From NCBI GenBank assembly GCA_002706095.1, contig PAJP01000023.1:248001-312000 (forward strand): a DNA stretch of 64,000 nt, given 5' to 3'. Source of the stretch: Methylophaga sp. GTDB lineage: Bacteria > Pseudomonadota > Gammaproteobacteria > Nitrosococcales > Methylophagaceae. The stretch's first letter is position 1. The number at the start of each line of letters is the position of its first letter. A program made the translations under genes and the position numbers. The notes beneath the pieces were generated by a model. It ran no database searches, was not told the DNA's origin, and saw only the letters and a program-made list of their open reading frames with translations. Positions 49,937-53,710 of the stretch are shown here, in pieces.

Positions 49937-49966
49937 TTGATAAGGTAAATGATAACGATTATCATT
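49937..49966 (+). promoter_or_regulatory. Fur-controlled sigma-70 promoter of the TonB operon
   Basis: A Fur box AATGATAACGATTATCATT (49948-49966) with perfect eight-base arms lies across TTGATA (49937-49942) and TATCAT (49960-49965), spaced 17 bases. Bound Fur would block polymerase, so the exbB-exbD-exbD-tonB-PepSY genes should be switched on under iron limitation. Confidence 0.88.
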
Positions 49967-49989: not shown

Positions 49990-50811
49990 ATGGCTCAAGA
50001 AAACGACGACGCATTAGGTACAACTGAGAATATCAGTAATAACGGCGCTGCAGTGACAGACGTAAATACCGATCCAAGTACAGTCTCGCCAGCAATGACC
50101 GATGCTTTAACTAGTACAGATCCAACAACGTTGGCTCCGCAAGCAGATGCGATGACACAGTTTGTGGAGTTCATGCAGGTAGGTGGACCTGTTGTATGGA
50201 TTCTGACAGGTTTTTCGGTAATCGCATTAGCGATTACACTCATTAAACTCTGGCAGTTCATGTCAGCGCGACCAGAATCCTCCAAACACCTTAAGTCTGT
50301 TATTCAACATTGGCAAAAAGGCGATGCTGCCGAAGCCATGATGATGTTGAATCCAAAACGACCAGTGGATGAGCTGGTGCTAATGTCGATTAGAGGTCTA
50401 ACTCAGCATAAAATGGATCTTGCGACCTTAAAAGAAGAGCTTGATCGTGTTGCTACACTGCGCCTCAATCAATTACGTGCTTACCTTCGTCCAATGGAGG
50501 TTATCGCTACATTAAGTCCTTTATTAGGTCTGTTAGGTACCGTGTTGGGGATGATTATCGCCTTCCAACAAATGGAAGCTGCAGGGAATCAGGTGGATCC
50601 GTCTGTTTTATCCGGTGGTATCTGGCAAGCATTATTAACAACAGCAGTTGGTCTGGCTGTGGCCATACCGGTTGTGACAGTACATAACTGGATGGAGCGT
50701 AAAGTTGAGCGTGTTGCATCGCTGATGAATGACACTGTCACCCAGATTTTCACAACAGCACCTGCTAAGCCAGTGTCTGCTGAAAACAATACCATGCGCC
50801 ATGCTGCTTAA
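49990..50811 (+). CDS. exbB: ExbB/TolQ/MotA-family proton channel, channel Glu replaced by Gln
   Basis: 273 residues: an acidic, Thr/Ser-rich N-terminal tail (1-58), a first membrane helix (about 66-90), a cytoplasmic domain, then two helices with LSPLLGLLGTVLGMI and GGIWQALLTTAVGLAVAIP. Compared with E. coli ExbB, the pore threonines are kept (T148 as T184, T181 as T218), but the conserved E176 is Q213 (codon CAA). It forms the motor with the two ExbD proteins that follow and powers TonB. GGGGAA ribosome site; first gene after the Fur box. Confidence 0.92.
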   Translation: MAQENDDALGTTENISNNGAAVTDVNTDPSTVSPAMTDALTSTDPTTLAPQADAMTQFVEFMQVGGPVVWILTGFSVIALAITLIKLWQFMSARPESSKHLKSVIQHWQKGDAAEAMMMLNPKRPVDELVLMSIRGLTQHKMDLATLKEELDRVATLRLNQLRAYLRPMEVIATLSPLLGLLGTVLGMIIAFQQMEAAGNQVDPSVLSGGIWQALLTTAVGLAVAIPVVTVHNWMERKVERVASLMNDTVTQIFTTAPAKPVSAENNTMRHAA

Positions 50812-51193
50812 TACAGAACCGCCAAGACATAAAAGAGCCATTAGTCTGACACCGCTTATTGATGTGGTGTTTATTCTGTTGCTGTTCTTTATGTTGTCTT
50901 CGACCTTTATCCAGTGGCGGCAAATTGATGTGTCGGCACCAAGTGAATCTCAGGCAGAATCTCGTGAGCAACGTGTTGTCACTCTGGTGTCAAATGACGG
51001 TACATACAAAATTGGTAATATGACCTTGTCTTTAAAAGATGCAAACTCTGTGGTTACGGTGGTTAATCAAGATCCTGATGCTGTCTATGTCATCGAGGTT
51101 AAATCAGGTATTCAAACACAAAGTATGATTGATCTGCTTGATGCCTTTAAACAGGCAGGCGCTAAATCTGTCAGCCTGGCAGGGATAAATTGA
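50801..51193 (+). CDS. exbD: ExbD-family protein 1, essential Asp present
   Basis: 130 residues: short cytoplasmic tail, one membrane helix (PLIDVVFILLLFFMLSSTF) and a periplasmic domain. The Asp at residue 21 corresponds to the proton-carrying D25 of E. coli ExbD. The ATG overlaps exbB by 11 bases; a longer frame upstream lies wholly inside exbB. It is followed immediately by a second ExbD. Confidence 0.92.
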   Translation: MLLNTEPPRHKRAISLTPLIDVVFILLLFFMLSSTFIQWRQIDVSAPSESQAESREQRVVTLVSNDGTYKIGNMTLSLKDANSVVTVVNQDPDAVYVIEVKSGIQTQSMIDLLDAFKQAGAKSVSLAGIN

Positions 51194-51621
51194 TGAAAGT
51201 CGGACAGTCGATTCAACATAAAAAGCCTGATCAAGATGACAGCTTGGTGCCGTTGATTAACATTGTGTTTCTGATGCTCATATTTTTTATGGTCGCGGGA
51301 CACATTAGTCAGTCTGACCCTATTAAGGTACAGCCGCCTTTATCTGCGAGTGAAACAAAGCAAGTCGAAGAACCCTTAGTTATTATCGTATCTGAAGATG
51401 GGCAAGTAGCGATTGATCAGGCAATTACAGATGATGAGGCGCTATTACCCACCATCAACAAACGTTTTGAAGCGACAGAAGATAAAGATACGTTTCATAT
51501 CTTAGTTAAAGTGGATGGCAATCTGCCGGTGGAAAGGCTTCAAGATGTGCTGACCATAATCAAGCAATCTGGCATCAAGCGTGTCTCATTGGCGACACAA
51601 AAACAAGCAGAACTAACATGA
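51193..51621 (+). CDS. ExbD-family protein 2, essential Asp replaced by Asn
   Basis: 142 residues of the same layout: tail, helix (PLINIVFLMLIFFMVAG) and periplasmic domain. In the position of E. coli D25 it has Asn23 (codon AAC), so it cannot protonate there in the same way. Its ATG shares a base with the previous stop (TGATG), and it overlaps tonB by four bases, so expression with ExbD1 is tightly coupled. A mixed ExbD1-ExbD2 dimer is the simplest reading. Confidence 0.9.
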   Translation: MKVGQSIQHKKPDQDDSLVPLINIVFLMLIFFMVAGHISQSDPIKVQPPLSASETKQVEEPLVIIVSEDGQVAIDQAITDDEALLPTINKRFEATEDKDTFHILVKVDGNLPVERLQDVLTIIKQSGIKRVSLATQKQAELT

Positions 51622-52454
51622 CAAAAAATCGTTATTGGATCTTTGCGCTTTTGGTGGCCGTTGCTATTCATGCCGCTGGCTTCGTCTTTTTTACCTATCA
51701 GCCTGAAGAAGAAGATGGTGCTGAGCTAACTGGCTTACAAGGTGTAGAAATTGATCTGGGTATGCTTGGTGACCTTGGTGACGTAGAAAAAACGCAAGAA
51801 AAAGCGACGGAGTCAGAGCCCGAACCTGAACCAGAAAAAGAGCCGGAACCTGAACCTGTTGTCGAGCCAGAACCTGTCGTTGAACCTGAACCTGTGGTTG
51901 AACCCGAACCTGTTGTAGAGCCTGAGCCAAAAAAAGTTGAGGCAAAACAAAAAACAGAAACAAAGGTAAAAGCACAAACCAAGCCTAAACCAGAACCAAA
52001 AAAAGTGGTTGAAGAGCTTATCGAAAAAGAAGTCACACCAGAAAAGCCGGTGAAAAAACAAACAGTCGCGACAACAACGACCAGTACAAACGTGAATAAA
52101 CAGACTGCCCAGAAGAAAACAACCGGGCAAGCAAGTGCACAGCTAAGTGGTGGTCAGATAGCAGCGCAAAAATCTTACTACAGTGAGCTGGCTGCAACAC
52201 TGGCCAAGCATAAACGTTATCCCATGGCCTCAAGACGTCGTGGTGAAGAAGGGATCGTCAAGCTGTTTTTTGTGGTTGATCGTGATGGCAAGGTGTTGGA
52301 TTTTCGTATTACACAAAGTTCGGGGTCAAAACGTTTAGATGAAGCGGTTATAAGCATGTTAAAAAAAGCCCAACCGTTACCTTCGTTTCCGGATGACATG
52401 TTGCAGTCTCAGCTTGAGGTGAATGTGCCGATTGCTTTCCAGCTTAATACATAA
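51618..52454 (+). CDS. tonB: TonB energy transducer
   Basis: 278 residues: N-terminal membrane helix (YWIFALLVAVAIHAAGFVFF, with a SHLS-like His), an extended periplasmic spacer rich in Pro-Glu (about 64-105) and Lys-Pro, and the C-terminal domain (YPMASRRRGEEGIVKLFFVVDRDGKV, SSGSKRLDEAV) that grips the TonB box of outer-membrane receptors. Four VVEPEP repeats lengthen the spacer. No receptor gene is in the window. Confidence 0.94.
   Translation: MTKNRYWIFALLVAVAIHAAGFVFFTYQPEEEDGAELTGLQGVEIDLGMLGDLGDVEKTQEKATESEPEPEPEKEPEPEPVVEPEPVVEPEPVVEPEPVVEPEPKKVEAKQKTETKVKAQTKPKPEPKKVVEELIEKEVTPEKPVKKQTVATTTTSTNVNKQTAQKKTTGQASAQLSGGQIAAQKSYYSELAATLAKHKRYPMASRRRGEEGIVKLFFVVDRDGKVLDFRITQSSGSKRLDEAVISMLKKAQPLPSFPDDMLQSQLEVNVPIAFQLNT
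51858..51929 (+). repeat. Four 18-base tandem repeats in tonB
   Basis: Four consecutive units encode Val-Val-Glu-Pro-Glu-Pro. They differ at synonymous positions, so the peptide is kept while the DNA has drifted. The repeat probably sets spacer length. Confidence 0.9.
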
Positions 52455-52486
52455 GTTCGGCTTTAATATGTTTTACGGTGGTTAAT

Positions 52487-53710
52487 ATGCGATCAATCGG
52501 AGTACTTATTCATCGCTGGTTTGGACTGGCCAGTGCTGTGTTTTTATTCATAGCCGGTCTTACCGGCGCCATTATCTCCTGGGACCATGAGCTGGACGAA
52601 TGGCTCAATCCACAGCTATATAAAGCCAAAACACAAGATGTGGACTTTGCTGCAATTGATGCTTTATCTCTTGCTAACAAGTTTGAAGCTGACAATCCAC
52701 AGTTAATGGTCAGCTTTATGCCGCTCAATATTGAGGCTGAGCATAGTTTAATGATGACAGTCATGCCCAGACCTGTTCCTGAGACTGGCAAAGCGGCTGC
52801 CGTGGATTTTAATCAGGTAGCCATCGATCCTGCGACCTCTGAGGTGCAGGCAAATAGAATGTGGGGGGAGATTTCGCTAACGCGCGAGAACATCCTACCT
52901 TTTCTCTATAAGCTTCACTACAGCATGCATATACCAGATGGTTTTGGTTTGGAACTCGGTATTCTATTTATGGGCATTATTGCTGTCGTCTGGACAATAG
53001 ATAGTTTCATTGCCTTATGGATAAGTTTTCCAAAAGCAAAAAGCTGGAAGAAGTCATTACGGTTCCGTTGGAAACAAGGCGGCTACAAATTAAACTTTGA
53101 TCTTCATCGCTCTGGCGGCGTCTGGTTATGGGGCTTTGTGCTGATTTTAGCGGTGACATCTATCTCGATGAATCTAAATAATGAGGTGATGCGTCCAGTA
53201 TTATCCGTTTTCTCCGAGCTGACGCCTACACCCTTTGATGAGCGTACACCGACACCATTGGATGAACCCATCAATGCCGAGTTGAGTCGTGAACAGATTC
53301 TGCCGATTGCACGCCAACAAGCCGACAAGTTAGGCATTTCAGATCCTGCAGGCGGGATTTTTTATGCGTCTCATTACGATGTTTATGGCGTGGGATTTTA
53401 TAAGCCGGAGAATGATCATGGCGATGGTGGTTTAGGCAATCCGTGGCTTTATTTCGATGGTAAAAGTGGTGACTACCTCGGCGGTAAGATACCTGGGCAA
53501 GGCACGGCAGGTGATATTTTCATTCAAGTCCAGTTCCCTCTACATTCTGGTCGTATTTTGGGTTTGCCTGGTCGAATTATGGTCTCAATTATGGGATTGA
53601 TGATAGCTATTTTTAGTGTCACAGGCATCATTATCTGGGCCAAAAAACGTCGAGCCAGAGTATCAACGAGAACCAATCAAGCATTAAATATGTCTTCTTC
53701 TCTTCGCTAG
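52487..53710 (+). CDS. PepSY-associated membrane protein (iron-uptake reductase-like)
   Basis: 407 residues. Four membrane helices (about 10-30, 155-180, 215-240 and 360-385) with the conserved HRWFGL, LHYSMHIP and HRSGGVWLWG histidines, the layout of the PepSY_TM (PiuB/FsrB-like) family. Family members are thought to reduce ferric siderophores in the periplasm or inner membrane. Placement behind tonB in a Fur-box operon supports that. An upstream GTG at 52478 is possible, but the ATG starts the conserved region better. Confidence 0.87.
   Translation: MRSIGVLIHRWFGLASAVFLFIAGLTGAIISWDHELDEWLNPQLYKAKTQDVDFAAIDALSLANKFEADNPQLMVSFMPLNIEAEHSLMMTVMPRPVPETGKAAAVDFNQVAIDPATSEVQANRMWGEISLTRENILPFLYKLHYSMHIPDGFGLELGILFMGIIAVVWTIDSFIALWISFPKAKSWKKSLRFRWKQGGYKLNFDLHRSGGVWLWGFVLILAVTSISMNLNNEVMRPVLSVFSELTPTPFDERTPTPLDEPINAELSREQILPIARQQADKLGISDPAGGIFYASHYDVYGVGFYKPENDHGDGGLGNPWLYFDGKSGDYLGGKIPGQGTAGDIFIQVQFPLHSGRILGLPGRIMVSIMGLMIAIFSVTGIIIWAKKRRARVSTRTNQALNMSSSLR

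Follow-up and report, generated by a model that had tools for sequence, protein, structure and literature searches.

TonB operons that pair an Asp-bearing with an Asn-bearing ExbD in Gamma- and Alphaproteobacteria

The exbB-exbD1-exbD2-tonB operon of Methylophaga sp.

The window, a stretch of 64,000 nucleotides from Methylophaga sp. (PAJP01000023.1 of assembly GCA_002706095.1, positions 248,001-312,000 of the forward strand), carries exbB, exbD1, exbD2 and tonB in overlapping order on the plus strand, with a Fur-box palindrome before them and a PepSY_TM gene after them. A sequence-only reading of this DNA had described one ExbB and two ExbDs in one operon, and the open reading frames and Pfam domains bear this out. 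The exbB gene (49990-50811) encodes a 273-residue protein of the GIW family of ExbB (Pfam MotA_ExbB, 6e-30), the predicted fold of which matches that of E. coli ExbB. The exbD1 gene (50801-51193; 130 residues; Pfam ExbD, 5.5e-21) overlaps the 3′ end of exbB, and exbD2 (51193-51621; 142 residues from ATG; Pfam ExbD, 8e-23) begins at an ATG that overlaps the exbD1 stop codon (TGATG); the TTG start as listed would make the protein one residue longer. The tonB gene (51618-52454; 278 residues; Pfam TonB_C, 1.7e-17) shares four bases with exbD2, and the PepSY_TM gene (52478-53710; Pfam PepSY_TM, 3.5e-57), about 24 bp past tonB on the same strand, is probably part of the same transcript. The Fur-box-like palindrome, AATGATAACGATTATCATT (49948-49966), lies upstream of exbB and differs from the 19-bp consensus by one or two mismatches on either strand; it is the sole such site in the window, where 0.04 were expected. 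An Rfam search yielded no RNA element near the operon. The tonB gene and the Fur box, like the recurrence across two classes described below, were additional to the content of the earlier reading.

The phmmer alignment of the ExbB segment sggiwqallttavgl with apgiaeallataigl of E. coli ExbB places Q213 (CAA, 50626-50628) at the position of E176, and T184 (50539-50541) and T218 (50641-50643) correspond to E. coli T148 and T181. Direct reading of the codons, together with alignment of the ExbD2 motif PLINIV to PFIDVM of E. coli ExbD, assigns both D21 of ExbD1 (GAT, 50861-50863) and N23 of ExbD2 (AAC, 51259-51261) to the position of D25. All of these assignments agree with the sequence-only reading. 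Three congeneric genomes, in which ExbB is 83-84% identical, also carry the operon, and locus L051 has the same Gln, Asp and Asn. Sequencing error at the three codons was ruled out, because orthologues in other genomes with 66-84% identical ExbB carry the same three residues.

By its parts, the operon is a Ton system: an ExbB with the MotA/TolQ/ExbB domain and the channel threonines, two proteins of the ExbD/TolR type and a TonB C-terminal domain. It departs from such systems in the ExbD2 residue, as the membrane Asp expected in every ExbD is present in ExbD1 and replaced by Asn in ExbD2, the putative second member of the axle. The proteins score far below the equivalog cut-offs of the E. coli type (ExbB, 56.6 vs 206 bits for TIGR02797; ExbDs, 32.6 and 44.6 vs 153 bits for TIGR02803) and below those of TolQ and TolR of the Tol-Pal system (73.5 vs 221 bits; 47.3 and 53.2 vs 127.3 bits), and the partner here is TonB. 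The E. coli TonB-ExbB-ExbD complex (five ExbB to two ExbD; PDB 6tyi, 9ddo) shares with the window operon the ExbB fold, the Thr ring, the ExbD architecture, the TonB partner and Fur-type regulation, whereas the ExbDs of the window operon differ from each other, with Asn in place of D25 in one of them, and the operon belongs to a family in which the E176 site is variable.

Survey of the family and the E176 position of ExbB

The peptide pattern used in a contig scan, which returned 80 loci, itself contained Asn, and the test of Asn conservation was therefore redone with searches anchored on ExbB alone, in which operons were read whatever their ExbDs and Asn was not selected for. The 80 pattern loci, being unfit for that test, served for breadth and names. 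The ExbB searches covered close relatives, 397 genomes of the phylum, 275 of the class and 288 of a second class, taken to be Alphaproteobacteria; a few loci of the same set came from a class-wide search anchored on ExbD2 with a query not restricted to Asn. After removal of duplicates, 141 distinct operons with an ExbB of the GIW or GIY type remained from Gamma- and Alphaproteobacteria. Both channel threonines were kept in every one of the 141 ExbBs, and 120 of the operons had tandem exbD genes. In these unbiased tandem operons, the order was fixed: the first ExbD had Asp without exception (120/120), and the second had Asn in 114, Ser in 3 and Asp in 2, one being unreadable (Asn in 114 of 119 readable). 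When the pattern-selected loci were added, Asn was found in 187 of 193 tandem operons. With a GIW/GIY motif in ExbB and an Asp ExbD1 followed by an Asn ExbD2, the window operon falls within this family. The family was found in 40 of the 275 genomes of the class and 51 of the 288 of the second class, or about 15-18% of the sampled Gamma- and Alphaproteobacteria, at slightly different thresholds and with a single-ExbD sister clade counted in. Hosts named by the pattern scan include Marinomonas, Neptunomonas, Halopseudomonas, Marinobacter, Thiocapsa, Thalassospira, Roseibium and Nitratireductor. The suggestion that the operon is a dedicated variant of the TonB motor, with one Asp-ExbD and one Asn-ExbD, thus gained support from a large family in which the pair is near-invariant.

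The three Ser-bearing ExbD2s (L267, L269 and L287; PLVSVIF, PLISVVF) have a residue that is not protonatable in the way Asp is. In L272 and L273, tandem Asp/Asn ExbDs accompany an ExbB that is not of the GIW type and in which His occupies the E176 site (GISHALVTTALG).

The E176 site behaved quite differently from the ExbD2 Asn. It was occupied by E in 51 of the unbiased tandem operons, V in 29, Q in 21, T in 9, L in 5, G in 2, A in 2 and I in 1, and on an ExbB tree built with this site masked, it changed at least 19 times among the tandem rows while the Asn of ExbD2 stayed. All 16 members of the single-ExbD sister clade, which is one clade only, had Glu. Other ExbB families that work with an ordinary Asp ExbD had E in 23, K in 7, Q in 5, V in 3 and M in 1. 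Given that Gln accompanies ordinary Asp-only ExbDs and that the site is variable, Gln at E176 is unremarkable. The sequence-only reading had tied the Glu-to-Gln change of ExbB to the Asp-to-Asn change of ExbD; this did not hold, nor is co-occurrence of Q213 and N23 a rule across genomes, as Glu is the commonest ExbB residue found with an Asn-ExbD2. By the refuting observation that this reading had itself named, its Gln half falls as well, since Gln, like Lys and Val, occurs at this site in ordinary single-ExbD families that keep Asp. These results show that the ExbB Glu is neither needed nor coupled to the ExbD2 Asn, and that other residues can freely take its place in a family that bacteria evidently use. 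The genome of the window also has a TtpC-type system (L006 / G000:C10:17409-18732), a single-ExbD operon with a normal Asp ExbD and two ExbBs, a long one in which the E176 site is Gln and a second one with Val there.

Conservation of the ExbD pair and its association with TonB

The Asn column of ExbD2 has an entropy of 0.20 bits and is among the five most conserved columns. Because it stays near-invariant at a mean identity of 32% within the family, we regard the Asn as a mark of constraint and not of drift; had the site decayed once a catalytic Asp was lost, it would be free to vary, and it has not varied in this way. ExbD1 and ExbD2 formed separate clades in the ExbD tree (support 95/88 and 97/78, respectively) and differ in the signature that precedes the helix, where ExbD2 has acidic residues and a hydrophobic residue in place of Thr at −4, and basic residues and TP are found in ExbD1. 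All parts of an ExbD are present in ExbD2, including the whole pore-lining helix motif. Its structure model, computed as a single chain like the others, has a membrane helix and a periplasmic domain; the latter matches E. coli ExbD structures, including those of ExbD-TonB complexes.

In a quick tree, a second origin of Asn was indicated by L279 and L288, which lay among single ExbDs; the careful tree placed both at the base of the ExbD2 clade, and a topology that holds all Asn-ExbD2 together was not rejected (AU p 0.213). The two Asp exceptions lie inside the ExbD2 clade on long branches, a position that fits reversal and retention alike. L169 (2610-2640) and L171 (L274, L275) are the tandem operons in which both ExbDs have Asp; they fall with ExbD2 in the tree and provide natural controls for the Asn. 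The gammaproteobacterial sister clade (L222-L234, L266) has a single Asp ExbD followed by TonB, with Glu in ExbB (16/16); the clade is placed next to ExbD1, and ExbD2 may have been lost from it. The two Asp/Asp operons and this clade show that not every member requires the Asn subunit, and that it is dispensable or reversible.

In each of two small genomes, G142 (99% complete, 1.1 Mb) and G668 (96%, 1.0 Mb), the ExbD matches number exactly two, one with Asp and one with Asn, and they are adjacent. Each genome has one ExbB of the family and one weak MotA-like match, a single TonB_C match adjoining ExbD2, and four (G142) or three (G668) TonB-dependent receptors. G801 (97%) is similar, and G849 and G797 have in addition only a TolQR-like pair, again with one TonB_C match each. 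No candidate Ton motor other than the Asp/Asn system was found in these species, and the system is therefore very probably functional there, a reading that allows for a second system on missing contigs or one with a TonB outside PF03544. In G142 (G142:C2:294422-301583) and G668 (G668:C10:6691-13616), several kb with genes for TonB-dependent receptors separate exbB from exbD1-exbD2-tonB.

Across the family, tonB lies directly downstream in 110 of the 127 loci that extend far enough, and exbB is preceded by a Fur-like site in 62 of 200 loci at 13/19 matches, as compared with 6% in shuffled DNA. In the alphaproteobacterial locus L300, the Asp/Asn pair is part of a heme cluster that also encodes HemS, a TonB-hemin receptor and an ABC transporter for heme. 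From this gene context, the main job of the system is likely the uptake of iron or heme.

Tandem exbD genes are already known. Xanthomonas campestris has tonB-exbB-exbD1-exbD2 (PMC3551730), and Gluconacetobacter has a Fur-box-linked operon of the same content with tonB first (PMC9368920); in both cases, the comparison is one of gene content. The heme-uptake cluster of the Roseobacter Ruegeria sp. TM1040 consists of hmuR, exbB, exbD1, a duplicate exbD1a and tonB (PMC5225302), the same components, and L300 matches it with an Asp/Asn pair; the published account of the cluster, with which the comparison was made, notes only the duplicate exbD, and no comment on the residue was found in it. Our search of the open-access literature returned no report of an Asp/Asn asymmetry or of an Asp-to-Asn ExbD.

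A putative heterodimeric motor and alternative explanations

In published rotary models, the two ExbD Asp residues alternate, with one proton spent per 36-degree step (PMC9022066); the same alternation is described for TolR, in which the Asp is called absolutely required (PMC12905483). Asn carries no charge and resembles protonated Asp in shape. The D22N variant of MotB was constructed to imitate this protonated form (PMC9022066). The hypothesis that we favour is that the operon encodes an iron-regulated Ton motor in which five ExbB surround an axle of one ExbD1 and one ExbD2. The genes overlap in translation and are obligately paired, and both residues are constrained; from this we infer a 1:1 heterodimer, and we lean towards an ExbB5-ExbD1-ExbD2 motor with a single proton-carrying subunit. 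In such a motor, the Asp of ExbD1 alone would load protons, and the Asn of ExbD2, as a fixed neutral stand-in for protonated Asp, could still hydrogen-bond the ExbB threonines and keep the asymmetric geometry. ExbD1 would then make proton-driven 36-degree steps in turn with unpowered steps through ExbD2, at a cost of about 5 and not 10 protons per turn; alternatively, full rotation might be replaced by a two-state swing. That this is a natural 5:1:1 ion-driven motor, only one of whose axle helices is able to carry a proton, we put forward more tentatively, as possible though somewhat short of probable.

In the Myxococcus AglRQS machine, too, a single MotA/ExbB-like protein has two MotB/ExbD-like partners that differ from each other, but AglQ and AglS are both predicted to keep Asp (PMC9389320), and the machine powers gliding. 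If the proposal is correct, the family has half the proton sites of MotAB and ExbBD, and a strict alternation of two Asp would not be needed for force generation. Current rotary models of 5:2 motors (Ton, Tol and the flagellar stator) let two identical Asp alternate, and from these the family departs; a widespread iron-uptake motor with a near-invariant Asn in one ExbD probably operates with a single proton site, in contrast to the two that textbook models require. As a ready-made natural example, the operons allow one to ask if a second site is required, how many protons each stroke costs and which subunit TonB contacts.

Against the heterodimer, one could envision an axle made of ExbD1 homodimers. 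In that case, the motor would be an ordinary ExbB5(ExbD1)2 with two Asp, and ExbD2 would be a periplasmic accessory (e.g., one that holds TonB or peptidoglycan) or an assembly aid, its membrane residue mattering for packing alone. The full periplasmic domain of ExbD2, with its resemblance to ExbD in complex with TonB, is in keeping with this, as are the Asp-only ExbD of the sister clade and the report that iron uptake in Xanthomonas does not require exbD2 (PMC3551730), although the Xanthomonas comparison is one of gene content. Packing, however, would tolerate Ala, Gly or Leu, whereas the Asn is as constrained as other pore columns and the entire helix motif is retained; we think that the accessory role is rather unlikely. 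E. coli ExbD D25N is inactive (PMC11658791), a result that counts against a half-site motor and would suit a scenario in which ExbD2 acts as a brake within the motor: dimers of three kinds (ExbD1/ExbD1, ExbD1/ExbD2 and ExbD2/ExbD2) would coexist, and their ratio would tune proton leak or torque under iron limitation. The genes are indeed co-directional behind one Fur box, but their tight spacing, with overlap in the window, suggests a ratio near 1:1, and a fixed inactive subunit would be costly where no other Ton motor was found. The brake appears quite improbable.

A co-evolved exchange in which the ExbB Gln compensates for the ExbD2 Asn would account for the window and for the 54 of 193 tandem operons in total that combine the two residues; the prevalence of Glu beside Asn, the changes at the E176 site on the ExbB tree and the occurrence of Gln and Lys with Asp-only ExbDs refute it as a general rule and make it barely credible. 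An ordinary duplication of exbD whose second copy decayed neutrally is contradicted by the near-invariant Asn, the intact domain and an operon conserved across two classes, and we regard it as hardly tenable. Duplication by itself is ordinary: the TtpC-type operon L305:879-3669 has two adjacent ExbDs with an identical membrane motif, apparently a tandem duplication without asymmetry, and because both copies keep Asp, tandem duplication alone does not give Asn.
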